Positions 12,345-25,273 of a stretch of 64,000 bases of DNA are shown here, piece after piece. The stretch lies in assembly GCF_004006175.1 (NCBI RefSeq), contig NZ_CP033219.1, positions 3,782,001 through 3,846,000 on the forward strand, given 5' to 3'. Every line of letters starts with the position of its first letter. The stretch's first letter is position 1. This DNA comes from Parasedimentitalea marina. Lineage in GTDB: Bacteria > Pseudomonadota > Alphaproteobacteria > Rhodobacterales > Rhodobacteraceae. The notes under the pieces are model-generated. The model did no database searches and was not told where the DNA came from. It saw only the letters and a program-made list of their open reading frames with translations. The translations under genes were made by a program, and so were the position numbers.

Positions 12345-13673
12345 CTAGACTTCGGGCAAACTCTGCCCGATCGCCAATTCCAGCTTATCAACCACCTCTG
12401 TGATCTGCTCATCACTGATTATAAACGGCGGTGCCAGCAGGATGTGGTCGCCGTTGACGCCGTCGCGGGTGCCCGACATCGGATAGCAGATCAATCCGGC
12501 CTCAAATGCGGCCTTCTTTATTTTCTTGGCCAAACCCAGGCTTGGATCAAACGGAGTTTTGGTTTCGCGATCTGCAACCAGTTCAACCCCACGGAACAGG
12601 CCCCGGCCGCGGATATCGCCGACATTGGGATGCTGGCCGAATCGCGCGACCAGTGCGGTCTGCAGCTTCTCGCCCATCTCGGCGCTGCGCTGTACCAATC
12701 CGCGATCAAGCATCCCGCGCACCACCGCCAATGCGGCAGCCGTCGCCACCGGGTGGCCTATATAGGTGTGACCATGCTGGAAAAATCCGCTGCCGCCCTC
12801 GATCGCCTGATAGATTTGTTTGGAACACATCATCGCACCAATGGGCTGATATCCAGCCCCTAACCCTTTGGCAATACACAGGATATCCGGCGCGACATCG
12901 TCCGCGTCGCAGGCAAACAAATGGCCAGTGCGGCCCATACCGCACATCACTTCGTCCAGGATCAGCAAGACACCGTATTGATCACAGATTTCGCGGACGC
13001 GCTTGAAATACCCCTCAACTGGCGGCACCGCCCCCGAGGTGGCTCCGACCACCGGTTCAGCCATAAAGGCCATCACTGTTTCCGGACCAAGGCGCAGGAT
13101 TTCCGCCTCCAACTCGTTGGCGACGCGCTGGCCGTAATCATGGGGGGTCTCGGCCTCACGACGCTCGGCGTATTCATAACAGGGAGCGATGTGTGAGATG
13201 TCGATCAAAAGTGGTGCAAACTGTTGGCGACGCCATTCGTTGCCACCCGCAGCCAGTGCGCCCAGCGTGTTGCCATGGTAGCTTTGCCGCCGGGCAATCA
13301 CATGACGGCGCTTTGGCTGGTCAATTTCCAAATAATACTGCCGCGCCAGTTTAATCGCAGCCTCGGTTGCCTCGGACCCGCCGGACACAAAATAAACCCG
13401 GTCCAGATCGCCGGGCGCATTGGCGATCAGCAAATCAGCCAGCTCCTCGGCCGGCTCTGAGGTCAGGAAACTTGTATGGGCAAAGGCCAATTTGCCAACC
13501 TGTTCCTGCACCGCACGGATCACATCCGCGTCAGAATGACCCAGACAAGACACTGCCGCTCCACCTGACCCGTCGAAATACCGTTTGCCGTCTGCATCGA
13601 TCAAATAGCAGCCATCGCCAGCCACAGCAGTGGGTAATTGCGCCTTGGTGTGGCGGGGAAACACGTGACTCAT
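12345..13673 (-). CDS. Class III (omega) aminotransferase, aspartate aminotransferase family
   Basis: This 442-residue PLP enzyme of the ornithine/GABA/omega-amino-acid group has the cofactor-binding signature LLILDEVMCGMGRTG followed by CIAKGLGAGYQPIGAMM, where the lysine in AKG forms the internal aldimine. YFVSGGSEATEAAIKLARQYY is the phosphate-binding loop. Substrate is not evident; omega-amino acids or polyamines are likely. It is divergent from tpa and shares its 181-bp promoter region, which contains TauR-type boxes. A role in using taurine-like amines (hypotaurine, homotaurine) or simple co-location are both possible. Confidence 0.88.
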   Translation of the reverse strand: MSHVFPRHTKAQLPTAVAGDGCYLIDADGKRYFDGSGGAAVSCLGHSDADVIRAVQEQVGKLAFAHTSFLTSEPAEELADLLIANAPGDLDRVYFVSGGSEATEAAIKLARQYYLEIDQPKRRHVIARRQSYHGNTLGALAAGGNEWRRQQFAPLLIDISHIAPCYEYAERREAETPHDYGQRVANELEAEILRLGPETVMAFMAEPVVGATSGAVPPVEGYFKRVREICDQYGVLLILDEVMCGMGRTGHLFACDADDVAPDILCIAKGLGAGYQPIGAMMCSKQIYQAIEGGSGFFQHGHTYIGHPVATAAALAVVRGMLDRGLVQRSAEMGEKLQTALVARFGQHPNVGDIRGRGLFRGVELVADRETKTPFDPSLGLAKKIKKAAFEAGLICYPMSGTRDGVNGDHILLAPPFIISDEQITEVVDKLELAIGQSLPEV

Positions 13674-13722: not shown

Positions 13723-13754
13723 CTGGACACAATGCTCGTCAAAATCTGGACCTA
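13723..13754 (+). promoter_or_regulatory. Candidate TauR operator of tpa
   Basis: Two CTGGAC boxes, CTGGACACA at 13723 and CTGGACCTA at 13746, lie 23 bp apart in the gap before tpa. In Rhodobacter TauR binds direct repeats of CTGGAC-type sequence upstream of tpa. The same spacing recurs before tauR and xsc in this window. Confidence 0.7.
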
Positions 13755-13854
13755 GAGCTTACCCAATTAATAGCGTTTCTGGAATCTGAAGCGACTCAGA
13801 CGGCCGTGTTGTCAAAGCGCTATACAGCTACTCAAATTGCGGAAAGGAATTGTC

Positions 13855-15252
13855 ATGGATGGCACCTTCAATGAAAACGACATTAGCCACATCGTCGATG
13901 CCGATAAGGCTCATGTTTGGCACCATCTGATCCAGCATAAGCAGTTTGAAACCAAAGATCCGCGCATCATCCTTGAGGGCAAAGGCATGCGCGTCTGGGA
14001 TCAGAACGGCAAAGAATATCTGGATGCAGTGTCTGGCGGTGTCTGGACCGTCAACGTTGGCTACGGTCGCGAAAGCATTGCCAAGGCGGTCTACGACCAG
14101 CTGATGAAGCTGTGCTATTTCGCCCAAACGGCTGGTTCTATCCCCGGCTCGCTTTATGCCGAAAAACTGATCTCGAAGATGCCAGGCATGAGCCGGGTCT
14201 ATTACACCAACTCAGGATCCGAGGCCAACGAGAAGGCCTTTAAGATGGTGCGCCAGATCGCGCACAAACGTTTTGGCGGCAAGAAACACAAGATCCTGTA
14301 TCGTGATCGCGACTACCACGGCGGCACCTTGGCCACTATGTCGGCCGGCGGTCAGGACGAGCGCGTGATGCAGTATGGACCACTGGCGCCGGGCTTTGTC
14401 CGCGTGCCGCACTGCATGGAATACCGCAACCACGAGCAGGGTCTGGATCACCTGTCGAGCGAAGAATACGGCATTGCCTCGGCCAATCTGATCGAAGAGG
14501 TCATCCTGCGCGAAGGTGCTGATACCATTGGCGCATTGTGCCTGGAGCCGGTGACTGCGGGTGGTGGTGTTATCACGCCTCCGCCTGGTTACTGGGATCG
14601 GGTGCAGGAGATCTGCAAGAAGTATGACATCCTGCTGCACATCGACGAAGTTGTCTGTGGCGTCGGCCGCACCGGCACCTGGTTTGGCTATCAGCAATAC
14701 GGCATCAAGCCGGATATCGTAACCATGGCCAAAGGCGTGGCCTCGGGTTATGCGGCGATTGCGCTCTGTGTCACCACCGAAGCGGTGTTTGACATGTTCA
14801 AGGACGATCCAAGCGATCCCCTTGGCTTTTTCCGTGATATCTCAACCTTTGGTGGCTGTACTGCTGGCCCGGCGGCGGCGCTGGAAAACATGCGGATCAT
14901 CGAAGACGAGGACCTGCTGGGCAACTGTAATGCCATGGGCGACCGTATGATCGGCAACCTGCAGGGGCTGATGGAAAAGCACAAAGTGATCGGCGACGTG
15001 CGCGGCAAGGGCCTGTTCCTGGGCGCCGAGCTGGTTGCAGATCGTGGCACCAAAGATCCGGTAACCGAAGCACAGATCGCGCAAGTGGCTGCCGAATGCG
15101 GCGCCCAAGGCGTGATCATCGGCATGTCGAATAAATCCATTCCGGGCAGAAACAACGTGCTGTGCTTCTCGCCTGCGCTAATCGCCACGGCGGATGACAT
15201 CGACGAAATCACCGAGTCGGTGGACAAAGCCCTGACCAAAGTCTTTGGCTAA
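13855..15252 (+). CDS. tpa: Taurine:pyruvate aminotransferase
   Basis: The product has 465 residues from the ATG at 13855, preceded by GGAAAGGA; a TTG further upstream is less likely. Strong family markers are TWHHL-like HVWHHLIQHKQFETKDPRII, DAVSGGVWTVNVGYGRE, and LLHIDEVVCGVGRTGTWFGY with the PLP lysine in TMAKGVASGYAAIA. It transfers the amino group of taurine to pyruvate, giving sulfoacetaldehyde and alanine, in the cytoplasm. Sulfoacetaldehyde is the substrate of Xsc, encoded 6 kb downstream. Two CTGGAC boxes upstream suggest TauR activation. Tpa is usually adjacent to tauR-xsc; here it is separated by six other genes. Confidence 0.95.
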   Translation: MDGTFNENDISHIVDADKAHVWHHLIQHKQFETKDPRIILEGKGMRVWDQNGKEYLDAVSGGVWTVNVGYGRESIAKAVYDQLMKLCYFAQTAGSIPGSLYAEKLISKMPGMSRVYYTNSGSEANEKAFKMVRQIAHKRFGGKKHKILYRDRDYHGGTLATMSAGGQDERVMQYGPLAPGFVRVPHCMEYRNHEQGLDHLSSEEYGIASANLIEEVILREGADTIGALCLEPVTAGGGVITPPPGYWDRVQEICKKYDILLHIDEVVCGVGRTGTWFGYQQYGIKPDIVTMAKGVASGYAAIALCVTTEAVFDMFKDDPSDPLGFFRDISTFGGCTAGPAAALENMRIIEDEDLLGNCNAMGDRMIGNLQGLMEKHKVIGDVRGKGLFLGAELVADRGTKDPVTEAQIAQVAAECGAQGVIIGMSNKSIPGRNNVLCFSPALIATADDIDEITESVDKALTKVFG

Positions 15253-15294
15253 AAATCTCCTCGCCACCCCGGTTTGGGATGGCAAGAACAACCT

Positions 15295-15323
15295 AACGCT
15301 CCGTCTTTGACGGGGCGTTTTTT
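15295..15323 (+). terminator. Rho-independent terminator of tpa
   Basis: AACGCTCCGTC-TTT-GACGGGGCG with one imperfect pair is followed by seven T, 42 bp after the tpa stop codon. Confidence 0.92.
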
Positions 15324-15423
15324 TATGGCACCTATTTTTCAGATGGGCTGATAGACGTTACACTCACACCTGATTAATTAATCTCCGCCTTGTTTCACGG
15401 TAACTTCAGCTCTTGGGAATTGG

Positions 15424-15813
15424 ATGCTTTCATTTATCTTGTCTCTGATACTGCCGCAGGATCGAGCAGTCACACTTGAAATTTGGCTGCGCGAATACAG
15501 CGTTCTGTGTGTTGTGACACTCGTGGCGGCTATAGGCGCGGGCGCTCTGTTTTTCGGTTTAGAGCCGAAGATACACCGCCATGAATCTTATCAAACGGTC
15601 CAGGTTACAGGCACCATCCCAACTGGCAGCGATACGGGCAGAATGCTCGTTGATGTAACCTTGCCGGACGGTTCAGCTCGACGCATGAGTACAACGAGCG
15701 GCACAGTCCTTGGCGGGATTACAAAAACTGCTTGTATTGAACGCCGCAAGCAGGTTCCCACCGGCAAACACCTTTATCGCCTAGTACCAGCTCATAACTG
15801 CGTTGGCCTTTAG
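15424..15813 (+). CDS. Hypothetical membrane-anchored protein
   Basis: This 129-residue protein has one or two N-terminal hydrophobic stretches (MLSFILSLILPQ, then VLCVVTLVAAIGAGALFFGL) and a soluble remainder predicted to be beta-rich (YQTVQVTGTIPTGSDTGRML, VDVTLPDGSARRMSTTSG). The tail has two cysteines. No family is recognised. It stands alone between tpa and a methyltransferase gene, with short gaps showing no clear promoter. AT content is somewhat above that of its neighbours. Confidence 0.6.
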   Translation: MLSFILSLILPQDRAVTLEIWLREYSVLCVVTLVAAIGAGALFFGLEPKIHRHESYQTVQVTGTIPTGSDTGRMLVDVTLPDGSARRMSTTSGTVLGGITKTACIERRKQVPTGKHLYRLVPAHNCVGL

Positions 15814-16004
15814 CTGTGCATAAGCAGGTCTGAATGCGGCGTATTAACGGAGTGTATTCGCTACAACGCTTGACCCTGCACACCGATGACAAACGGCCTG
15901 TTTGGCGATCTAAAACACAATCGGTCCAGCGTTAACGTGATCCTCAGCTTTTTGCGAAAATTTGCGTCAAAGACGGCACGCAATCCCTGATCAAAAGGTA
16001 ATTC

Positions 16005-17594
16005 ATGAACGACTGGACCTCTGGCTACGTGGCTGACATCGACTATACCCATGATTTCTTTCGCGAACTAACACCGTCCCATCTGGGATTCTGCGCCTTA
16101 TCCAAGGGGCATGATCACGCCCTGAACGGCGCCAAGCTAACCTATTGTGAATTGGGCTGCGGTCAGGGTTTCTCTGCCAATCTGCTCGGCGCCGCCAATC
16201 CGCATATTGAGTTCCACGCCATGGATTTTAATCCCGCCCATATGGCAGGCGCCGCCAATCTTGCCCGCGATGCCGGTTTGGACAATGTCCACTTCTATGA
16301 GCGCTCATTCGAGGATTTTGGCGCGGCACCGGGTTTGCCGCAAGAGTTTGATGTTATTGCGTTGCATGGCGTGTACAGCTGGGTCTCCGAACAGCATCAG
16401 CAGCACATCACCGACTTCATCTCAACCCGGCTAAAGCCCGGCGGACTTGTGTACCTCAGCTACAATGCGCTGCCCGGCTGGGCCCCAGCCCTGCCCCTCC
16501 GCCGCATCCTGACAAACCGGGCGGAACAGGGAACTGGCCCGCTGAGCGATCGCATCGCAGAGGCCGTAGAGTTCGCCCACCAGCTAGAGCAGAACGGGGC
16601 GACCTACTTCACCAGCAACCCGGCCCTGTCAAAACGGCTCAGCAAAATGAAATCCGCGCCCGCCAACTACCTGGCACATGAATACTTCAACAAGGACTGG
16701 ACCCCGTTCCACTTCGAAGACATTGCCCGCGACATGTCACAGGCCAAACTGAAATTTCTGGGCGCCGCAGAACCGCGCGATCACATAGACGACATTTCGT
16801 TTTCCGAAGAGCAGCAGCAGTTGCTGCAAATGGAACGTGATCCGGTGCAGTGTGAAAGCCTGCGTGACATCCTGCTGAACGAGCAATTCCGGACAGATGT
16901 TTTTGTAAAAGGCAAACTGCCCTTTACCGAACGTGGTGCCGTCGGGGCCTGGTTCAAAACCCCGCTGGCGCTGACCCGGCACTATAGCGGCGGCGAGATC
17001 AAGCTGTCGTGGCGTCGGGGTGACATCGCAATGGATCAGGACCAGTATGGCCCCGTTCTGACCGCGCTATCGCAAGGACCTATGACCACCCGGGCGCTGC
17101 TGGAAAGTGGCGTATTTGGCGAAATGGGCTGGGCAGACATCACCCGACTGCTGACCCTGTTGATTGGCGACGGGTATCTTGCCCCCAGCCTGCCCCAGGA
17201 GGGGCTGGCCGAGCGGAGCGAACGGTGCCGTGCCTTCAACAAGGAAGTTGCAAAACGATCCGAGGACAGCGAATCCCTGCACTTTTTCGCCTCCCCCGTC
17301 ACGGGCGGCGGCATTGCTCTGGATCGCTTTGAACAATTGTTCCTGCTCGCCCGCAGCGAAGGGAAGAAAACCCCATCGGACTGGGCTGACCTGGTCTGGC
17401 AAATTCTGGCGCCACAGGGTCAAAGACTGCAGCAGGATGGGCGCATCTTGGAAACTGCCGAGGAGAATTTGGCGGTGCTATACGCCCGCGCCAATGCCTT
17501 TGCTGCCCGGCGTTTGCCTCTGTGCGAGCTCCTCGGCCTCACTCTTGAGCCTCCGGTTACAGCAGCACGTCGACGTGGCAAGGCTGTGGCTTAA
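16005..17594 (+). CDS. SAM-dependent methyltransferase with methyltransferase regulatory domain
   Basis: This 529-residue protein starts at the ATG at 16005, after AAAGGT. An N-terminal class I Rossmann methyltransferase domain (residues 1-200) has the SAM motif YCELGCGQGFSANLLGAA, the acidic motif II in FHAMDFNPAHM, and a VIALHGVYSWV stretch. The central and C-terminal parts (about 210-520) match the predicted methyltransferase regulatory domain often fused to such enzymes in Proteobacteria. Substrate is unknown; relatives are linked to surface polysaccharide or small molecules without firm proof. It is a single-gene unit ended by a 13-bp hairpin terminator. Confidence 0.86.
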   Translation: MNDWTSGYVADIDYTHDFFRELTPSHLGFCALSKGHDHALNGAKLTYCELGCGQGFSANLLGAANPHIEFHAMDFNPAHMAGAANLARDAGLDNVHFYERSFEDFGAAPGLPQEFDVIALHGVYSWVSEQHQQHITDFISTRLKPGGLVYLSYNALPGWAPALPLRRILTNRAEQGTGPLSDRIAEAVEFAHQLEQNGATYFTSNPALSKRLSKMKSAPANYLAHEYFNKDWTPFHFEDIARDMSQAKLKFLGAAEPRDHIDDISFSEEQQQLLQMERDPVQCESLRDILLNEQFRTDVFVKGKLPFTERGAVGAWFKTPLALTRHYSGGEIKLSWRRGDIAMDQDQYGPVLTALSQGPMTTRALLESGVFGEMGWADITRLLTLLIGDGYLAPSLPQEGLAERSERCRAFNKEVAKRSEDSESLHFFASPVTGGGIALDRFEQLFLLARSEGKKTPSDWADLVWQILAPQGQRLQQDGRILETAEENLAVLYARANAFAARRLPLCELLGLTLEPPVTAARRRGKAVA

Positions 17595-17644
17595 CCCGCG
17601 CCACCCAAACAGTCCCCCCCCAAACTGGACCGGTATAAATTATC

Positions 17645-17674
17645 AAAAGCGGATCTTTTTTAAGATCCGCTTTT
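17645..17674. terminator. Long symmetric terminator after the methyltransferase gene
   Basis: AAAAGCGGATCTT-TTTT-AAGATCCGCTTTT is a perfect 13-bp stem with A and T runs at its ends. It can act on either strand. It separates the methyltransferase gene from the GNAT gene, whose start is 42 bp on. Confidence 0.9.
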
Positions 17675-17716
17675 GCGCCATTGGTAGGGCTGCACCCTGC
17701 GAAAGGACCAATCGAT

Positions 17717-18316
17717 ATGTGGGCAAAACCTGTTACACTTAAAGGCAATATCGCGACGCTTGCCCCTCTTGACCAAAGCCACGCCGCCGACTTGGCCGAG
17801 GCCAGTGCCGATGGTGCGCTGCACCAGTTGTGGTACACCACGGTTCCATCGCCAAACGATGTGCCTGCCGAGATCACCCGCCGTCTGACCCTTTGCGATC
17901 AAGGCACCATGATCCCCTTTGCAATTCTTGATGCAAGCGGTCGCGCCGTGGGCATGACCACCTATATGAACATCGACCACAGCAACCGCCGACTGGAAAT
18001 CGGGTCGACCTGGTACCGGAAATCTGTGCAACGCACGGGGCTGAACACCGAGTGCAAATGGCTGATGCTGCATCACGCCTTTGAGACCCTGAATGCCATC
18101 GCAGTCGAATTCCGGACCCATGTGATCAATGTGCAAAGCCGGCGCGCCATTGAACGGCTGGGCGCCAAACAGGACGGCATCCTGCGTGCCCACATGATCC
18201 TGAGCAATGGCACCCTTCGCGACACTGCCGTCTATTCCATCACGGCCACCGACTGGCCCACCACCAAGGCCCACCTCAACTTCCAGCGACAGCGCCACCG
18301 GGCTGACTCAAAGTGA
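17717..18316 (+). CDS. GNAT family N-acetyltransferase
   Basis: The product has 199 residues from the ATG at 17717, which has GAAAGGA 10 nt upstream; an earlier in-frame start would lie in the terminator. The RimJ/RimL-like acetyltransferase pattern is seen: an N-terminal strand (KPVTLKGNIATLAPLDQSHA), AVGMTTYMNIDHSNRRLEIG with strand-turn-strand, WYRKSVQRTGLNTECKWLML as the acetyl-CoA-binding helix, and INVQSRRAIERLGAKQDGIL as the signature motif B. It probably acetylates a small amine or peptide N-terminus. The stop codon is followed closely by a dispersed repeat. Confidence 0.9.
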   Translation: MWAKPVTLKGNIATLAPLDQSHAADLAEASADGALHQLWYTTVPSPNDVPAEITRRLTLCDQGTMIPFAILDASGRAVGMTTYMNIDHSNRRLEIGSTWYRKSVQRTGLNTECKWLMLHHAFETLNAIAVEFRTHVINVQSRRAIERLGAKQDGILRAHMILSNGTLRDTAVYSITATDWPTTKAHLNFQRQRHRADSK

Positions 18317-18323
18317 TCCTCTA

Positions 18324-18385
18324 TTCATCTGGCCAAAAATATCCTGGGGGAGTCGCGGCCTGCCGCGGCGGGGGCAAAGCCCCCA
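18324..18385 (+). repeat. Dispersed box-plus-hairpin repeat, copy 1
   Basis: CATCTGGCCAAAAATATCC (18326-18344) followed by TGGGGGAG, then a GC-rich hairpin GGGGGC-AAA-GCCCCC (18370-18384). It lies between the GNAT gene and the convergent permease gene. The same box and hairpin recur at 29389 and 57386. Confidence 0.7.
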
Positions 18386-18405
18386 CTCTCCCCACGCCCG
18401 GACAC

Positions 18406-19434
18406 TCAGACCATCTGAAACACAATCCCTGACACAATCGCCCCGCTGACTCCCAGCCCAAGATAGGTGGCAAAGACCTGCGGCTTGACCAGTGACCAAA
18501 CCGCCAGCATTGCCGGGATCGAGCTGACCGCGCCTGCCACCATGAACGACATCGCTGCCCCGTTGCTCATGCCTTGGTCAATCAGCCCTGCCAGCAGTGG
18601 CGGCGCCACATAAGAGTTCAGGTATGCGGGCATTCCGACCAATGCGGCGATCGCAATTGGCAACACTCCTTCACCGCCGACCAAGGTGGCAATCAAATCA
18701 GCCGGGACATAATGAACCAGCAGCGCCTCCAGCACATAGGCCAGCGCCAACCACTTCAGCAGGAAGATGCCATTTGAAATGAACTCGGCTTTGAAATGAT
18801 CACGACGAGGTTGATGCTGCCAGAATTTCCACACCGGCTTTGTTTCCAGTTTTGGGGCTCCACAGCCACAGCCGGTCGTCGGCGCAACGCGCAGCGGCGA
18901 GGTAAACAACCCACCTCGCATCAAGGCCCTGACCGTGAAACCACCAAACAGACCCAGAGCGACGGCGATAATTGCCTTGCCAATGGCAAACGGCCATCCC
19001 AGCGCCCCAGCCGTGATCAGCAATGTTGGCGGATCAATCAGAGGTGAGGACAACCAGAACGCCATCACAGCCGACAAAGGTGCGCCCAGCGCCAGCAACC
19101 CGGCGATAAAGGGAATCACTTCGCACGAGCAAAATGGGGCCAGCCCCCCAAACAAGGCTGCCATGAATATCATTCGGGTCTCGCGACCTTCAAAGGCCTT
19201 GGCGACCATGACCTCGGCACCGGTGGCCTTGAGATAAGCCAGTAGCAGCACGGCAAACAGAATGTATCGCCCGGTGCTCAGCAGTGCCAGCACGGCAAAC
19301 TCACCCACCGAGGTAAAGTTAGCCGGGTCCAGAACGGCCACAGCGAGCAACAGGACCACAACCAGCGTCCATGGCGTTTTCAACCACTTCAACGCATCGC
19401 CGGGGCCACTTGGGTTTTGGCTGAGATCAGACAT
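18406..19434 (-). CDS. UPF0718-type permease (YraQ/ArsP-like)
   Basis: The product has 342 residues from the ATG at 19434, which overlaps the arsR end by 8 bp; the longer frame to 19485 would lie inside arsR. About eight to ten membrane helices are visible. The family signatures are present: GLAPFCSCEVIPFIAGLLAL near the fourth helix and the cysteine-rich loop GCGCGAPK (about residue 190). Relatives include ArsP, which exports organoarsenicals, and uncharacterised YraQ permeases. The ArsR-type gene in the same transcript suggests metal or metalloid induction. The transported compound is unknown. Confidence 0.88.
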   Translation of the reverse strand: MSDLSQNPSGPGDALKWLKTPWTLVVVLLLAVAVLDPANFTSVGEFAVLALLSTGRYILFAVLLLAYLKATGAEVMVAKAFEGRETRMIFMAALFGGLAPFCSCEVIPFIAGLLALGAPLSAVMAFWLSSPLIDPPTLLITAGALGWPFAIGKAIIAVALGLFGGFTVRALMRGGLFTSPLRVAPTTGCGCGAPKLETKPVWKFWQHQPRRDHFKAEFISNGIFLLKWLALAYVLEALLVHYVPADLIATLVGGEGVLPIAIAALVGMPAYLNSYVAPPLLAGLIDQGMSNGAAMSFMVAGAVSSIPAMLAVWSLVKPQVFATYLGLGVSGAIVSGIVFQMV

Positions 19435-19747
19435 CGTTTGCCGCCTTCTTGCTATGGGCATCTTCACAGCATTCGCTGAGAACAAACTGCGCCAGGGCCT
19501 CTAGCTGTTCAAAACTGGCCCGGTTGATGGTCGAACGTCCGACCTTCTCCTGCTCGACCACGCCGGCACCGGTCAAGAACTTGAGATGATGCGCCAATGT
19601 CGAAGGCGCGATGCCGGTACGATCCTGAATTTCATTGACCATCAGCCCATCCTGACCCGCCCGGATCAGACAGCGCAGCACTTGTAGCCGCGCCTCGGAC
19701 CCCATCGCAGCAAACCCCTGTGCCGCTTGTTCCCATAACATTGTCAT
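19427..19747 (-). CDS. ArsR family transcriptional regulator
   Basis: The product has 106 residues, with ATG at 19747 or 19741. It is a winged helix repressor of the ArsR/SmtB fold with the typical FAAMGSEARLQVLRCLIRAG start and the recognition helix region APSTLAHHLKFLTGAGVVEQ, then a wing (EKVGRSTINRAS). The C-terminal pair of cysteines in LSECCEDAHSK may bind a metal or metalloid, though the classic ArsR motif ELCVCDL is absent. It overlaps the permease gene by 8 bp. A 16-bp palindrome 17 bp upstream is its likely operator. Confidence 0.9.
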   Translation of the reverse strand: MTMLWEQAAQGFAAMGSEARLQVLRCLIRAGQDGLMVNEIQDRTGIAPSTLAHHLKFLTGAGVVEQEKVGRSTINRASFEQLEALAQFVLSECCEDAHSKKAANDV

Positions 19748-19763
19748 TTCTCCGGTTGATTCT

Positions 19764-19779
19764 ATAAAACTAGTTTTAT
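19764..19779. promoter_or_regulatory. Palindromic candidate operator of arsR-permease
   Basis: ATAAAACTAGTTTTAT is a perfect 16-bp palindrome 17 bp before the arsR start. ArsR-family repressors bind AT-rich inverted repeats of this size near the -10 region. Autoregulation is inferred. Confidence 0.6.
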
Positions 19780-19826
19780 GGTTTCTTTATTCAGAATGCA
19801 ATACTGATTATTTTGTCGCCCATCCC

Positions 19827-19857
19827 TAAGTCCAGATTGCACCCCACTTAAGTCCAG
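19827..19857 (-). promoter_or_regulatory. Candidate TauR operator upstream of tauR
   Basis: TAAGTCCAG occurs at 19827-19835 and 19849-19857, exactly 22 bp apart. Read on the minus strand each is CTGGACTTA, the box reported for Rhodobacter TauR. The second box ends 15 nt before the tauR start codon, which fits autoregulation. Confidence 0.72.
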
Positions 19858-19872
19858 CCTAAGGTGCATCGC

Positions 19873-21333
19873 ATGGCAATATCCGTCGACACATTCTTTC
19901 TGAGCCCCAAAGCACATGGCACCCTGCAGGCGCAAATCCAGCAGATGATAGCCGAGGGCATCTTATCCGGCCGTTTCCATGTCGGAGAAAAACTGCCCTC
20001 GTCGCGCAAGCTGGCGATGCATCTTGGCATCAGCCGGATTACCGTAACGCTGGCCTATACCGAGTTGCTGGCCAACGATTACCTGACCTCGCGTGGGCGA
20101 TCGGGTTATTATGTGTCGGAAAACGCACCAGTACCACCCAGCTATACTCCGCCAGAGAAATCTGATGAAACCGTGGACTGGTCAAAGGCAATGGCGCGTC
20201 AGTTCACCGGCGGCGACACCCCGCGCAAACCGCAGGACTGGCGCGACTACAAATACCCGTTCATCTACGGCCAGGCCGACCCCTCGTTGTTTGATCACGC
20301 AAACTGGCGCCTTTGTGCCTTGCGGGCGCTGGGGCAAAAGGATTTTGCGGCCCTGACAACCGATTATTTCGACCAAGACGACCCGTTGTTGATCGAATAT
20401 ATCGCCCGCCACACCCTGCCCCGACGCGGCATCACGGCCCGGCCCGAAGAGATCCTGATTACGCTAGGGGCACAGAACGCCCTATGGTTGGTTTCGCAAA
20501 TTCTGCTGAGCCAGCAGCGAAAAGCGGCGATAGAGGATCCTTGCTATTATACCTTACGGGATCAGTTGGTTCACAGCCGATGTCAGATTGATGCCATTGC
20601 GGTAGACCGAGATGGATTGCCTCCGGAACACATCACCGATGACACTGACGTCATATTCACCACCCCCAGCCACCAAAGCCCAACCACCGCGACCATGCCG
20701 ATGGAACGCCGCCGGGCCTTGCTGGACCGGGCCCGTGACATCGATGCCGTGATCGTCGAGGACGACTATGAATTTGAGATGTCGTTCCTGTCGGCCCCCT
20801 CGCCTGCGCTAAAGTCGTTGGATCGTGACGGCCGGGTGGTCTACGTTGGCAGCTTCTCAAAATCGCTGTTTCCGGGATTACGACTGGGATATCTGGTAGG
20901 GTCTGAGCCCTTTATCCGGCAGGCCCGTGCCCTGCGCGCCAATGTTCTTCGCCACCCGCCCGGGCATATTCAACGCACAGTGGCCTACTTCCTTTCACTG
21001 GGTCACTACGACGCCCAAATACGGCGCACCGCAAAAAAGTTGCACCAACGCCGCACTGTGATGGAAGAAGCCATTACCGAACATGGTCTGACCATTGCCG
21101 GACGGGGTGTTTACGGCGGTTCCTCGATCTGGATGCAGGCTGACCCCTCGGTGGACATGGCAACTGTCGCGCGCAGCCTGATGCCGCAGAGCGTTTTGGT
21201 CGAGCCCGGCGCACCCTTTTTTGCCGAAAAAAACCGTCAGCATAATTATTATCGCCTGGGATATTCGTCAATTGCACAGAACCGCATTGAACCGGGTTTG
21301 GCACTGCTGGCCAAGGCATTACTGCCCACCTGA
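19873..21333 (+). CDS. tauR: Taurine catabolism regulator TauR (MocR/GabR type)
   Basis: The product has 486 residues from the ATG at 19873, with AAGG 8 nt upstream. An N-terminal GntR-type winged helix (GTLQAQIQQMIAEGILSGRF, then SSRKLAMHLGISRITVTLAY) is joined to a class I aminotransferase-like domain. In that domain FSKSLFPGLRLGYLVG carries the PLP lysine and VIVEDDYEFEMSF the cofactor Asp/Tyr pair. MocR proteins sense PLP-amine adducts; TauR activates tpa and xsc in response to taurine. It stands just ahead of xsc on the same strand and shares operator-like boxes with tpa and xsc. Confidence 0.93.
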   Translation: MAISVDTFFLSPKAHGTLQAQIQQMIAEGILSGRFHVGEKLPSSRKLAMHLGISRITVTLAYTELLANDYLTSRGRSGYYVSENAPVPPSYTPPEKSDETVDWSKAMARQFTGGDTPRKPQDWRDYKYPFIYGQADPSLFDHANWRLCALRALGQKDFAALTTDYFDQDDPLLIEYIARHTLPRRGITARPEEILITLGAQNALWLVSQILLSQQRKAAIEDPCYYTLRDQLVHSRCQIDAIAVDRDGLPPEHITDDTDVIFTTPSHQSPTTATMPMERRRALLDRARDIDAVIVEDDYEFEMSFLSAPSPALKSLDRDGRVVYVGSFSKSLFPGLRLGYLVGSEPFIRQARALRANVLRHPPGHIQRTVAYFLSLGHYDAQIRRTAKKLHQRRTVMEEAITEHGLTIAGRGVYGGSSIWMQADPSVDMATVARSLMPQSVLVEPGAPFFAEKNRQHNYYRLGYSSIAQNRIEPGLALLAKALLPT

Positions 21334-21335
21334 GA

Positions 21336-21368
21336 CTGGCCCTAATCTGGTGTCACATCTGGCCCTAA
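21336..21368 (+). promoter_or_regulatory. Direct repeats before xsc, candidate TauR operator
   Basis: CTGGCCCTAA occurs twice, at 21336-21345 and 21359-21368, exactly 23 bp apart, starting 3 nt after the tauR stop and 81 bp before the xsc start. It differs from the CTGGAC box in one core base but keeps spacing and direction. Confidence 0.7.
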
Positions 21369-21449
21369 CGGCTGTCAGCCCCACACCATAAACCAAGGGT
21401 AATCCGGCATATTGCCGGCCCTTTCGGCATCTCGTCAGGAGAATTTAAA

Positions 21450-23225
21450 ATGAAAATGACCACCGAAGAAGCCTTTGTAAAAACACTGCAAATGCACGGT
21501 ATTGAGCATGCTTTTGGCATCATCGGATCAGCCATGATGCCGATCTCCGATATCTTTGAGCCTGCTGGCATCACGTTCTGGGACTGTGCCCACGAAGGGT
21601 CCGGCGGCATGATGGCCGACGGTTACACCCGTGCCACCGGAAAAATGTCGATGATGATCGCGCAAAACGGCCCCGGCATCACCAACTTTGTCACTGCTGT
21701 AAAAACAGCCTACTGGAACCACACCCCGCTGCTGCTGGTTACTCCGCAGGCTGCGAACAAGACCATGGGTCAGGGCGGTTTCCAGGAAATGGAACAGATG
21801 AACGCCTTTGCTGATTGCGTCTGCTATCAGGAAGAAGTGCGCGACCCGACCCGTATGGCCGAAGTTCTGAGCCGCGTCATCATGCAGGCCAAGCGTCACA
21901 GCGCCCCGGCCCAGATCAACGTACCACGTGACTATTTCACCCAAGTGGTTGACATCGACCTGCCTGCTATCGTCGATTTTGAGCGCCCCGCAGGCGGAGC
22001 AGAAGCACTGGAACAGGCCGCTGAGCTGCTGTCGAGTGCCAAATTCCCCGTCATTCTGAACGGCGCTGGCGTTGTCATCGGTGGCGCAATCCCGGCTTCT
22101 ATCGCTTTGGCTGAACGTCTGGACGCCCCGGTTTGCTGTGGCTACCAACACAACGACGCCTTCCCCGGTTCGCACCCGCTGCACGCAGGTCCTTTGGGTT
22201 ATAACGGCTCCAAGGCCGCAATGGAGCTGATCTCGAAAGCTGACGTTGTACTGGCTTTGGGCACCCGCCTGAACCCGTTCTCGACCCTGCCCGGCTATGG
22301 CATCGATTACTGGCCGACAGAGGCGAAAATCATCCAGGTCGACATCAACCCTGACCGTATTGGCCTGACCAAGAAAGTCACCGTTGGTATCATTGGCGAT
22401 GCAAAATCCGTGGCTGACACCATCCTCTCTAAACTGGCTGACACCGCCGGAGACGAAGGCCGCACCGCGCGCAAGGATCTGATTGCCACCACCAAATCGG
22501 CATGGGCCCAAGAACTGTCATCGATGGACAGCGAGCAGGACGATCCTGGTACCACCTGGAACCAGCGCGCCCGCGCCGCTAAGCCAGACTGGCTGAGCCC
22601 ACGCCGCGCCTGGCGTGCCATTCAGGCCGCTCTGCCTGAAAATGCGATCATCTCGTCTGACATCGGCAACAACTGTGCCATCGGTAACGCCTATCCTTCA
22701 TTCGAAGAAGGCCGTAAGTACTTGGCACCAGGCCTGTTCGGCCCCTGTGGCTATGGTCTGCCAGCGGTTGTTGGTGCGAAAATCGGTCGCCCTGACGTTC
22801 CGGTTGTTGGTTTTTCGGGTGACGGCGCATTTGGTATCGCCGTGACCGAGCTGACCGCCATTGGTCGCGAAGAATGGCCGGGTGTAACCCAGGTTGTGTT
22901 CCGCAACTACCAGTGGGGTGCTGAAAAGCGCAACTCGACCCTGTGGTTCGACGACAACTTTGTCGGCACCGAGCTGGACACCAAAGTGTCTTATGCCGGT
23001 ATCGCCAATGCCTGTGGTCTGAAAGGCGTTGTAGCGCGCACCATGGACGAGCTGACCGACGCACTGCGTCAGGCCTGTGAAGATCAGAAACAGGGTATCA
23101 CCACCCTGATCGAAGCAATGATCAACCAGGAACTGGGCGAACCATTCCGCCGTGACGCGATGAAGAACCCAGTTGAAGTTGCTGGGATCAGCGCCGCCGA
23201 CATGCGCCCTCAGAAAGGCGCCTAA
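21450..23225 (+). CDS. xsc: Sulfoacetaldehyde acetyltransferase
   Basis: This 591-residue thiamine diphosphate enzyme is related to acetolactate synthase. The N-terminal domain has EEAFVKTLQMHGIEHAFGII and DCAHEGSGGMMADGYTRATG (the catalytic Glu region). The C-terminal ThDP motif is GFSGDGAFGIAVTELTAIGR, running through to FRNYQWGAEKRNS. It cleaves sulfoacetaldehyde with phosphate to acetyl phosphate and sulfite, the desulfonation step. RBS AGGAGA stands 8 nt before ATG. It lies between tauR and ackA, with the ackA start one base past its stop. Codon use looks even and T-ending, as in a highly expressed gene. Confidence 0.97.
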   Translation: MKMTTEEAFVKTLQMHGIEHAFGIIGSAMMPISDIFEPAGITFWDCAHEGSGGMMADGYTRATGKMSMMIAQNGPGITNFVTAVKTAYWNHTPLLLVTPQAANKTMGQGGFQEMEQMNAFADCVCYQEEVRDPTRMAEVLSRVIMQAKRHSAPAQINVPRDYFTQVVDIDLPAIVDFERPAGGAEALEQAAELLSSAKFPVILNGAGVVIGGAIPASIALAERLDAPVCCGYQHNDAFPGSHPLHAGPLGYNGSKAAMELISKADVVLALGTRLNPFSTLPGYGIDYWPTEAKIIQVDINPDRIGLTKKVTVGIIGDAKSVADTILSKLADTAGDEGRTARKDLIATTKSAWAQELSSMDSEQDDPGTTWNQRARAAKPDWLSPRRAWRAIQAALPENAIISSDIGNNCAIGNAYPSFEEGRKYLAPGLFGPCGYGLPAVVGAKIGRPDVPVVGFSGDGAFGIAVTELTAIGREEWPGVTQVVFRNYQWGAEKRNSTLWFDDNFVGTELDTKVSYAGIANACGLKGVVARTMDELTDALRQACEDQKQGITTLIEAMINQELGEPFRRDAMKNPVEVAGISAADMRPQKGA

Positions 23226-23226
23226 A

Positions 23227-24402
23227 GTGACTGGGGACAAGGATCAAAGCCTGGGCAACCAACAGCTGATCCTTGTCCTCAACGCGGGGTCATCCTCGAT
23301 TAAATTTGCCGTATTCGACAAAGCCTTGTCCGAGGTGCTGTCGGGTATGGCCGAAGGTATTGGTGGCGCCTCACGACTTAAGGTCGGCGCCACCGAGATT
23401 GAAACACCCTTCATCGATCATCGCTCGGCGCTATCGGCCATTCTGAAACTGCTGCCCAAACATGGCATTGCCCTGACCGACCTGCGCGCCGCAGGGCACC
23501 GGGTGGTGCATGGTGGCAGCAAGCTGACCGCGCCTGTGCGGGTAACGCCTGAGGTCCGCGCCGAAATCTCCAGTTGCACGCCACTGGCACCGCTGCACAA
23601 CCCTCATAATCTGGCGGCTATCGATACGCTGGCCGAACTCACGCCGGACCTGCCGCAGTTCGCCAGCTTTGACACCTCGTTCCACGCCAGTAACCCCGAG
23701 GTCGCAACCCGCTATGCGATCCCCAAGATGATCGAGACCAAGGGCATTCGGCGCTACGGGTTTCACGGGCTGTCCTATTCATCGCTGGTGCGCCGCCTGC
23801 CCGAGATCTCGGGCGAGAAGCTGCCCTCGCGCCTGCTGGCGTTTCACCTGGGCAACGGTGCTTCGCTTTGTGCTATCAAGAACGGGCGGTCGGTTGCCAC
23901 CACTATGGGCTATTCGCCACTGGATGGGCTGACCATGGGCACGCGTTCAGGTGGGATCGACGCCAATGCGGTGCTGCGTCTGGTTGAAGACAACGGGTTA
24001 GAGCGCACAAAAGCGATCCTGAACCACGAAAGCGGATTGCTGGGGCTGTCGGGTGGTAAATCGGACATGCGCAACCTGATGCTGGACCCCAGCGCCGACA
24101 GCGCCTTTGCCATCGAACACTTCTGCTACTGGTCGCTGCGCCACGCCGGATCGCTGATTGCCGCAATGGAGGGGGTGGATGCCATCGCCTTTACTGGCGG
24201 CATTGGAGAGAACGCGGTGGGCGTGCGTGCGCGCATTCTGCGCGGTCTGGAATGGATTGGGGTGCGAATGGATGTGGATGCCAACCACGCCCGCAAGGCC
24301 CAGCTGCACGCCGCCAGCTCCAAGGTGCACATCTGGATGGTCCCGGCCGAAGAGGAACGGATGATCGCCATCGACGCGGCCGCGTTGCTGGAGGCGGTAT
24401 GA
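23227..24402 (+). CDS. ackA: Acetate kinase
   Basis: The product has 391 residues from a GTG at 23227, one base after the xsc stop, with AAAGG 8 nt before it inside xsc. ASKHA-fold markers are LILVLNAGSSSIKFAVFD (phosphate 1), GHRVVHGGS, FDTSFHASNPEVATRYAIP, RRYGFHGLSYSSLVRRL, FHLGNGASLCAIKNGRS and AFTGGIGENAVGVRARIL. It interconverts acetyl phosphate plus ADP and acetate plus ATP. Placed directly after xsc it can turn the Xsc product into ATP by substrate-level phosphorylation and release acetate, an alternative to Pta. It is convergent with pta, 16 bp apart. Confidence 0.95.
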   Translation: MTGDKDQSLGNQQLILVLNAGSSSIKFAVFDKALSEVLSGMAEGIGGASRLKVGATEIETPFIDHRSALSAILKLLPKHGIALTDLRAAGHRVVHGGSKLTAPVRVTPEVRAEISSCTPLAPLHNPHNLAAIDTLAELTPDLPQFASFDTSFHASNPEVATRYAIPKMIETKGIRRYGFHGLSYSSLVRRLPEISGEKLPSRLLAFHLGNGASLCAIKNGRSVATTMGYSPLDGLTMGTRSGGIDANAVLRLVEDNGLERTKAILNHESGLLGLSGGKSDMRNLMLDPSADSAFAIEHFCYWSLRHAGSLIAAMEGVDAIAFTGGIGENAVGVRARILRGLEWIGVRMDVDANHARKAQLHAASSKVHIWMVPAEEERMIAIDAAALLEAV

Positions 24403-24418: not shown

Positions 24419-25273
24419 TCAGGCCTGCGCTGCCGTCAACACGGCGGCGGCTACGATATCCTCGACCGAGGCGCCACGGCTTAGGTCGCAAACAGGGCGT
24501 GCAAACCCCTGCAGGAAGGGGCCCAGCGCCTGTGCGCCACCCAGTTCCTGGCACAGCTTATATGCAATATTACCCGCATCCAGTGAGGGAAAGATCAGCA
24601 CATTAGCGTCCAAGGGCGTGATCCCTTTCTTGCCTGCGACCACGCTGTTCAGGGCTGCGTCGGCCTGGACCGGTCCGGCGAACCCGGCCTGCTCTGCGGC
24701 CTCACGCACCCGCGTCACGCTGTCGCCATCTCCTGAGGTGCCGGTGGAAAACGACAACATCGCCACCCGCGCAACCCCCAAAAGCGATTCGGCCGAGGTG
24801 GCCGAGGCCCGCGCGATATCCGCAAGTTGCGCTGCATCAGGGGCCACATTTACAGCGCAATCGGCAAATACCATCTCGCGGCCATCCGGGAATACCATCA
24901 GGAAAAACGACGACGGTATCGACACCCCCGAAGACAGTCCGATGCCAATACTTGCCGCCTCGATCACCCGGCGTGTCGGCACATCGGCCCCCGCCACCAT
25001 CGCATCGGCCTCACCTGTCGCGACCATAGCAGCAGCCCGGTATAAGGGCTTGGAAATCATACGTTTTGCGATCGATTCCTTTAGCCCGCGCGCTTCGACC
25101 AAAGCCGCAACATGGGCCTCGGACGGGGCAGACAGTGGCAAGGGGTCACACAGGCCTTCGGCTTTCAACCGGACTGCGGCCTCTGCCACGCGGGGGTCTT
25201 CCATTTCCGGAAACACCACCCGAGCAGACCGCGATTTTGCGACTGCATATGCATTTTCAAGTACAGACATCAA
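24419..25273 (-). CDS. pta: Phosphate acetyltransferase, short form
   Basis: The product has 284 residues, with starts at 25273 or 25270. This is the minimal phosphotransacetylase fold without the N-terminal regulatory domain of the long Pta. Typical segments are ARVVFPEMEDPRVAEAAVRL, EADAMVAGADVPTRRVIEAA, FFLMVFPDGREMVFADCAVN and ANVLIFPSLDAGNIAYKL. It converts acetyl phosphate and CoA to acetyl-CoA and phosphate. In roseobacters a pta usually follows xsc; here it is on the opposite strand, end-to-end with ackA and start-to-start with a citrate synthase only about 30 bp away. Confidence 0.95.
   Translation of the reverse strand: MMSVLENAYAVAKSRSARVVFPEMEDPRVAEAAVRLKAEGLCDPLPLSAPSEAHVAALVEARGLKESIAKRMISKPLYRAAAMVATGEADAMVAGADVPTRRVIEAASIGIGLSSGVSIPSSFFLMVFPDGREMVFADCAVNVAPDAAQLADIARASATSAESLLGVARVAMLSFSTGTSGDGDSVTRVREAAEQAGFAGPVQADAALNSVVAGKKGITPLDANVLIFPSLDAGNIAYKLCQELGGAQALGPFLQGFARPVCDLSRGASVEDIVAAAVLTAAQA

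Follow-up and report, generated by a model that had tools for sequence, protein, structure and literature searches.

Three box pairs in a taurine gene cluster

How can the sites of a single regulator be arranged at three promoters when one of these belongs to the regulator gene itself? This question is raised by the taurine genes of Parasedimentitalea marina, which we analysed in a window of 64 kb (contig NZ_CP033219.1, positions 3,782,001 to 3,846,000; coordinates below are counted from the first base of this stretch unless another contig is given) in which tpa, tauR and xsc are all located on the plus strand. A first-pass annotation had proposed that pairs of CTGGMC-type boxes tie these three genes into one regulon of TauR, a regulator of the MocR subfamily, and the analyses presented here indicate that the three pairs are very probably docking sites of the taurine sensor TauR.

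The pair before tpa (13723..13755, plus strand) consists of CTGGACACAA at 13723-13732 and CTGGACCTAG at 13746-13755, which are 23 bp apart from start to start and lie at -132 to -100 from the tpa ATG. Before xsc (21336..21368, plus strand) the box CTGGCCCTAA is found twice, at 21336-21345 and 21359-21368, again with a 23 bp spacing and at -114 to -82 from the xsc ATG. The pair before tauR (19826..19857) is reversed, with box 1 CTGGACTTAA at 19848-19857 and box 2 CTGGACTTAG at 19826-19835 on the minus strand, a spacing of 22 bp, and its end 15 bases before the ATG. The positions, strands and spacings of all three pairs had been correctly given by the first-pass annotation.

The pattern CTGGMC-N16/17-CTGGMC has three matches in the 64 kb, compared with a mean of 0.08 and a maximum of 1 in 100 dinucleotide shuffles, none of which contained three. 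As this pattern was derived post hoc from the finding itself, conservation in relatives was used as the independent test. A weight matrix of the operators of relatives, which was built including the window's own sites and genus, gave the three pairs 34.5, 33.2 and 30.8 bits, with the next site in the window at 15.4 and the best score over five Markov shuffles at 16.0. When the whole own genome was scanned with a profile constructed without the own genus (150 of 2019 first-look candidates scored), the tauR operator ranked first (24.8 bits, E 1.3e-4) and the xsc operator second (21.8 bits, E 1.1e-3).

The regulator gene (19873..21333, plus strand) encodes a MocR-subfamily protein with an N-terminal GntR winged helix (Pfam GntR, 51.3 bits) and a C-terminal class-I aminotransferase domain (Pfam Aminotran_1_2, 60.8 bits), both above cut-off, and its best relatives in the PDB are chains of GabR. 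It is approximately 51.7% identical to the regulator located beside tauA on Sinorhizobium meliloti pSymB, and its gene sits among taurine dissimilation genes, with xsc immediately downstream and the end of tpa 4.6 kb upstream. The xsc gene (21450..23225, plus strand) encodes a sulfoacetaldehyde acetyltransferase (NCBIfam equivalog TIGR03457, 923.1 bits with a cut-off of 676.4), and tpa (13855..15252, plus strand) a class-III aminotransferase (Pfam Aminotran_3), which had no NCBIfam model above cut-off among the matches listed (25 of 69) and is named a putative taurine-pyruvate aminotransferase because of its neighbours and its operator.

Conservation of the box pairs in relatives

We looked for relatives of TauR in 100 family genomes, 57 of which matched at E 1e-100, and the best 30 loci, with that of the window included, were taken and enlarged by seven genomes of the own genus to a family set of 37 tauR loci. 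Of the 30 family genomes, 27 contain tpa and 25 contain xsc, and tpa was also found in all seven added genomes. The best box pair was then searched for in the 350 bp before each gene, on both strands, with spacings of 21-24 bp and a score out of 20. A minus-strand pair with at least 15 of 20 was the best match before tauR in 35/37 loci (22 bp in 32, 23 bp in 3), and in 31/37 a 22-bp minus pair was located 12-16 bases before the ATG. A plus pair was found in 34/34 tpa upstream sequences (23 bp in 31) and in 25/27 of those of xsc (23 bp in 22), the two without a pair being second xsc copies in two genomes (G055 and G031), and the xsc pair was also visible downstream of tauR in 8/8 own-genus loci with a score of 19-20. 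Markov-simulated upstream sequences reached at least 15 in 85/1960 cases and at least 17 in 0/1960. These were used in place of a coding-region control (392 segments, 17 of which scored 17-20) that was contaminated, since the segments from tauR loci extend past tauR into the xsc operator, the likely cause of the high scores.

A second, named set comprised the best 80 of 560 confirmed tauR loci from GTDB representatives, covering Phaeobacter, Leisingera, Ruegeria, Shimia, Tritonibacter, Roseovarius and others, with some unclassified or metagenome bins, and sharing 5/80 loci with the family set. The loci are related and the counts from them are therefore not independent, with distinct upstream sequences numbering 80/80 for tauR, 45/45 for tpa and 65/66 for xsc. 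In this set tpa was within range in 45/80 loci and xsc in 66/80, and in the remainder (35 loci for tpa, 14 for xsc) the gene was absent from the flanks of up to 9 kb or fell below the score limit. All 45 tpa genes had a plus pair (23 bp in 40, 22 bp in 5), as did all 66 xsc genes (23 bp in 60, 22 bp in 6). The tauR upstream sequences scored at least 15 of 20 in 78/80 cases, every one on the minus strand, and a 22-bp minus pair ended 13-15 bases before the ATG in 75/80; the exceptions include two loci (L159, L168) with the pair in place at a score of 14, and three (L123, L136, L142) with their best match elsewhere. The boxes and their spacing are thus kept in close relatives, and the lack of conservation named beforehand as an argument against the regulon was not encountered.

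The search was extended to 28 more distant tauR homologues with 46-66% identity, for which spacings of 20-25 bp were allowed and not all start codons were resolved. Here a minus pair scoring at least 15 was the best match in 23/28 (22 bp in 16, 23 bp in 4, 24 bp in 2 and 21 bp in 1). In Sinorhizobium meliloti ml47, where tauR is divergent from tauA, a 22-bp minus pair lies 48-16 bases before the annotated tauR start (score 16), and in Aminobacter, with the same divergent arrangement, such a pair lies 51-19 bases before the annotated start (score 15, tied with a plus match).

A reversed box pair on a predicted leaderless promoter

Inspection of the tauR upstream region gave a predicted -35 element TTGCAC (19837..19842, plus strand), which lies between the two boxes, and a predicted -10 element TAAGGT (19860..19865, plus strand) at 17 bp from the -35 element and 7 bases before the ATG, from which transcription is predicted to begin on the ATG or directly beside it. 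The spacer between the two tauR boxes contains a conserved TTGC on the tauR strand, and the other operator classes share only an AT beside box 2. We searched the last 60 bases upstream of the ATG for TTGNNN-17-TANNNT or TATAA; in its first form, with TANNNT only, this motif was found in 55/80 named loci, and it was widened to TATAA at 17 bp after reading the 25 missed sequences, most of which carry TATAAG or TATAAC at that distance. The widened motif is present in 74/80 named tauR loci and always ends 5, 6 or 7 bases before the ATG, compared with 0/45 tpa and 0/66 xsc upstream sequences and 81/16000 shuffles. A Shine-Dalgarno-like motif (AGGA, GGAG or GAGG, 4-17 bases before the start) was found in 2/80 tauR upstream sequences, and in 39/45 and 64/66 of those of tpa and xsc, respectively. 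A promoter motif this close to the ATG, together with the scarcity of Shine-Dalgarno-like motifs, suggests that the tauR mRNA is probably leaderless.

The tauR operator would then span approximately -47 to -16 of the predicted leaderless promoter, and would overlap it in such a way that the -35 element lies between the boxes and box 1 within the -35/-10 spacer. A reversed pair positioned on the predicted promoter is as expected of an autorepressor, and we infer autorepression from this layout. The first-pass annotation had suggested that the reversed direction at tauR reflects a different sign of regulation, and this receives support from the architecture, since in most of the relatives examined a reversed 22-bp pair overlies the -35 element and the spacer of a promoter predicted to be leaderless.

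The tpa and xsc promoters

Downstream of the xsc pair, a -10-like element TAAACC (21389..21394, plus strand) begins 30 bases downstream of the first base of box 2, and a TA is found at this distance in 48/66 named xsc loci. This distance would place box 2 against the -35 position, consistent with the layout expected for an activator. The ackA gene downstream (23173..24402, plus strand; acetate/propionate kinase family, NCBIfam TIGR00016 above cut-off) has an open reading frame that overlaps the end of xsc, although its true start codon is uncertain; no box pair of its own was found in the weight-matrix scan of the window, and it is probably co-transcribed with xsc.

The individual box positions also differ between operator classes. 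At base 5 of box 2, a C is present in 61/66 xsc sites and in 30/45 tpa sites (A in 15/45), and an A in 58/75 tauR sites. It had been proposed that an A-to-C core change tunes the xsc operator specifically, but this is not supported in that form, since C is the commonest base in box 2 of tpa as well and box 1 of xsc has an A at this position in 42/66 loci. The change is graded rather than specific to xsc, and the tpa and xsc sites are better separated from the tauR site by base 7 of box 2, which is C in 66/66 xsc and 45/45 tpa sites and T in 69/75 tauR sites. Base 7 of box 1 is mixed at tpa and xsc.

Weighing the TauR model against its rivals

The explanation that we consider likely is that all three pairs are TauR operators, with activation at tpa and xsc(-ackA) and autorepression at tauR. 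TauR, as a MocR-type taurine sensor produced from 19873-21333, would bind all three pairs; at tpa and xsc(-ackA) it would sit on a forward 23-bp direct repeat that abuts the -35 region or lies upstream of it, and in the presence of taurine would activate transcription of these genes. At tauR it would occupy a reversed 22-bp direct repeat, with one box on either side of the -35 element and the -35/-10 spacer covered, and so may block RNA polymerase at its own promoter and hold its own level down. The sequences themselves show that the pairs are present, rare and conserved and give their orientation, their spacing and the geometry of the promoter motifs, from which binding, the sign at each promoter, the ligand effect, the leaderless start and the location of the tpa promoter are deduced.

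Several observations count against this explanation. A search for a -10 element of tpa resolved none, and in the profile scan of the own genome the tpa operator ranked fourth (14.8 bits, E 0.21), which is not significant by itself, with the score after it dropping to 13.5 bits. A genome-wide scan with the 23-bp pattern and two mismatches gave 3 sites, versus 8 for a control with the pattern written backwards. The promoter motif is present in 28/37 tauR loci of the family set, and the operator layout in that set deviates in one locus without a pair (L010), in one with a minus pair that is merely tied with a plus pair (L007), and in four with pairs that differ in spacing or place (L022, L023, L030, L031). 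Among the distant homologues, 5/28 are without a minus pair as best match (one has a plus pair, four have none), and two Paracoccus records examined have no pair before tauR, with a best score of 13. Finally, PdxR was the only NCBIfam model above its cut-off for the regulator (346.8 bits, cut-off 320) among the matches listed (25 of 59), which include no model named TauR, and as this equivalog model exceeds its cut-off with a TauR-like protein, automatic annotation may give 19873-21333 the name PdxR.

The gap upstream of tauR is shared with divergent genes on the minus strand (18406-19747) for an ArsR-type regulator and an ArsP-type permease, of which the regulator gene (19427-19747; Pfam HTH_20 and HTH_5 above cut-off) is the nearest neighbour. 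Relative to these genes the pair before tauR is in forward orientation, approximately 80 bp upstream of the first open reading frame, and it could thus serve as their activating site and leave tauR itself unregulated. There is a precedent for such an arrangement in the 22-bp minus pairs found between tauR and the divergent tauA in S. meliloti ml47 and Aminobacter, and the S. meliloti tauA promoter requires TauR (PMC4254191). We nevertheless regard this as unlikely. The nearest open reading frame upstream of tauR is divergent in 44/80 named loci and in tandem in 36/80, based on a mechanical call of open reading frames, and the pair is in the same place in 75/80 whichever is the case, so that the reversed pair is independent of a divergent neighbour. 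In addition, on the side of the pair that faces the neighbour a TA at -10 distance is found in 0/42 divergent loci with the pair in place, compared with the 48/66 at xsc, and the tauR -35 element falls inside the pair. The reversed pair is therefore best read as the operator of tauR itself, though it may also serve the neighbour, and could descend from a tauR-tauA divergon of the rhizobial type.

Box 1 lies within the -35/-10 spacer, the region from which MerR and like regulators activate transcription, and TauR bound there might activate tauR rather than repress it. The usual optimal length of a promoter spacer is 17 bp, and a promoter that already has this length needs no untwisting; while the 17-bp spacer in 74/80 loci follows from the construction of the motif, 55/57 matches were still at 17 bp when spacings of 13-21 bp were allowed. 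Furthermore, MocR regulators often repress their own genes, as noted in PMC5320631, and MerR-like activation of tauR appears slightly less probable still than regulation of the divergent neighbours. That the boxes are chance or generic repeats without a tie to TauR has a negligible probability: CTGG-type hexamers are frequent in GC-rich DNA and the genome-wide two-mismatch scan was no richer than its control, but three matches in the window stand against 0.08 in shuffles and the position, orientation and spacing of the pairs are kept in dozens of loci.

Comparison with known MocR systems

The GabR protein of Bacillus subtilis, a MocR regulator which has gamma-aminobutyric acid as ligand, works from one divergent intergenic region, whereas there are three separate operators in the system described here. 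The two share the combination of catabolic-gene activator and own-gene autorepressor, as gabTD is activated by GabR, which in vitro also represses the gene that encodes it (PMC6917764), a combination predicted here for TauR.

The closest precedent is TauR of Rhodobacter capsulatus (Wiethaus et al. 2008, as cited in PMC5320631), a MocR activator of taurine genes which binds direct repeats of CTGGACYTAA, and the pairs of the window match this published site in sequence and in their location before target genes. The reconstructed alphaproteobacterial TauR regulons include tpa, xsc and ackA among others (PMC5320631, Suvorova and Rodionov 2016), and the same source describes MocR operators as direct repeats which lie on one side of the DNA, separated by two or three helical turns. 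With both the site and a regulon containing tpa and xsc published, the core of the finding is already known, and what we describe is a correct further case of an established regulon; the proposal of one regulon for tpa, tauR and xsc is well supported by the conserved boxes, orientation and spacing, and largely published as well (PMC5320631). Compared with R. capsulatus TauR as cited there, a split into classes is seen here: the pairs at tpa and xsc are forward and mostly spaced by 23 bp, while that at tauR is reversed, spaced by 22 bp, and overlies a promoter predicted to be leaderless.

The taurine section of PMC5320631 names no orientation or spacing by target, no leaderless tauR and no target resembling YciI (described below), and neither the class split by orientation, spacing and promoter nor the latter two predictions were met in the parts of the TauR literature examined. 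In a limited literature search, no account of a MocR gene with a leaderless transcript, of autorepression by TauR or of listed TauR sites was found, though such accounts may have been published. Taurine is widely used by marine microbes (PMC13155104), and the added value of this system lies in a rule, open to test, by which a single MocR protein may activate some genes and repress its own, namely by an operator that is turned round, spaced 1 bp shorter and placed on the promoter. A further concrete prediction is that of the tauR message, which is probably leaderless.

Taken to its full extent, the rule could amount to a three-part TauR code of box orientation, spacing and base 7 of box 2, in which a forward pair with 23 bp and C7 would mean activation, and a reversed pair with 22 bp and T7 over the -35 element of a leaderless promoter self-repression. 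Such a code would be conserved among roseobacter genera irrespective of the adjacent gene. The reversed 22-bp pair in the rhizobial tauR-tauA divergon would then suggest that the roseobacter tauR operator is half of an ancestral divergent promoter after loss of the transporter genes, and the regulon would include the YciI-like protein. This complete version is tentative, and we would sooner expect some part of it to fail than all of it to hold.

Extent of the regulon and neighbouring genes

A fourth TauR-like pair is located in the same genome before a gene for a YciI-like protein (L182:1501-1533, corresponding to C1:2563268-2563300, minus strand), where CTGGAAATAA and CTGGCCCTAT are 23 bp apart, and this site ranked third in the profile scan of the own genome with 18.4 bits. 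The protein scores 20.8 bits with Pfam YCII, below the cut-off of 24. Of the five nearest relatives within the genus, four (L189, L190, L191 and L193, scores 17, 16, 16 and 15) have a 23-bp plus pair that ends 51-64 bases before the ATG of this gene, and the fifth (L192) has no such pair. The more distant L194 has a 23-bp plus pair ending 49 bases before the ATG (score 17), L195 has no pair and L196 merely a 20-bp match (score 15). Outside the genus, weaker pairs are present in two relatives (L227, L228), and a homologue at E 1e-15 is missing in 27/29 other genera. From this distribution the YciI-like gene is a plausible extra member of the TauR regulon.

The tpa operator lies in the gap between tpa and a divergent gene for a second class-III-type aminotransferase (12345-13673, minus strand), and we considered whether the two share this operator. 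A relative of this aminotransferase (above 450 bits) was found in 15/80 named loci, but in no more than two of them, the closest ones (L101, L102), does it lie less than about 180 bp from tpa, so that a shared operator is at most genus-specific and was rejected as a general feature.

On the other side of the cluster, the phosphate acetyltransferase gene pta (Pfam PTA_PTB, 24419-25273, minus strand) converges on ackA, which brings both acetyl phosphate routes side by side. No TauR pair was found near pta in the weight-matrix scan of the window. PMC5320631 states that pta and ackA never occur together in one TauR regulon, and the locus, which resembles the regulons reconstructed there in tpa, xsc, ackA and the motif, fits this exclusion. 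The two second xsc copies without a TauR pair (G055:C1:1823091-1824863 and G031:C22:401770-403542; L084 and L085) each have a tauR-like gene of the more distant kind (L223 and L224) at about 7 kb, and this gene does bear a minus pair.

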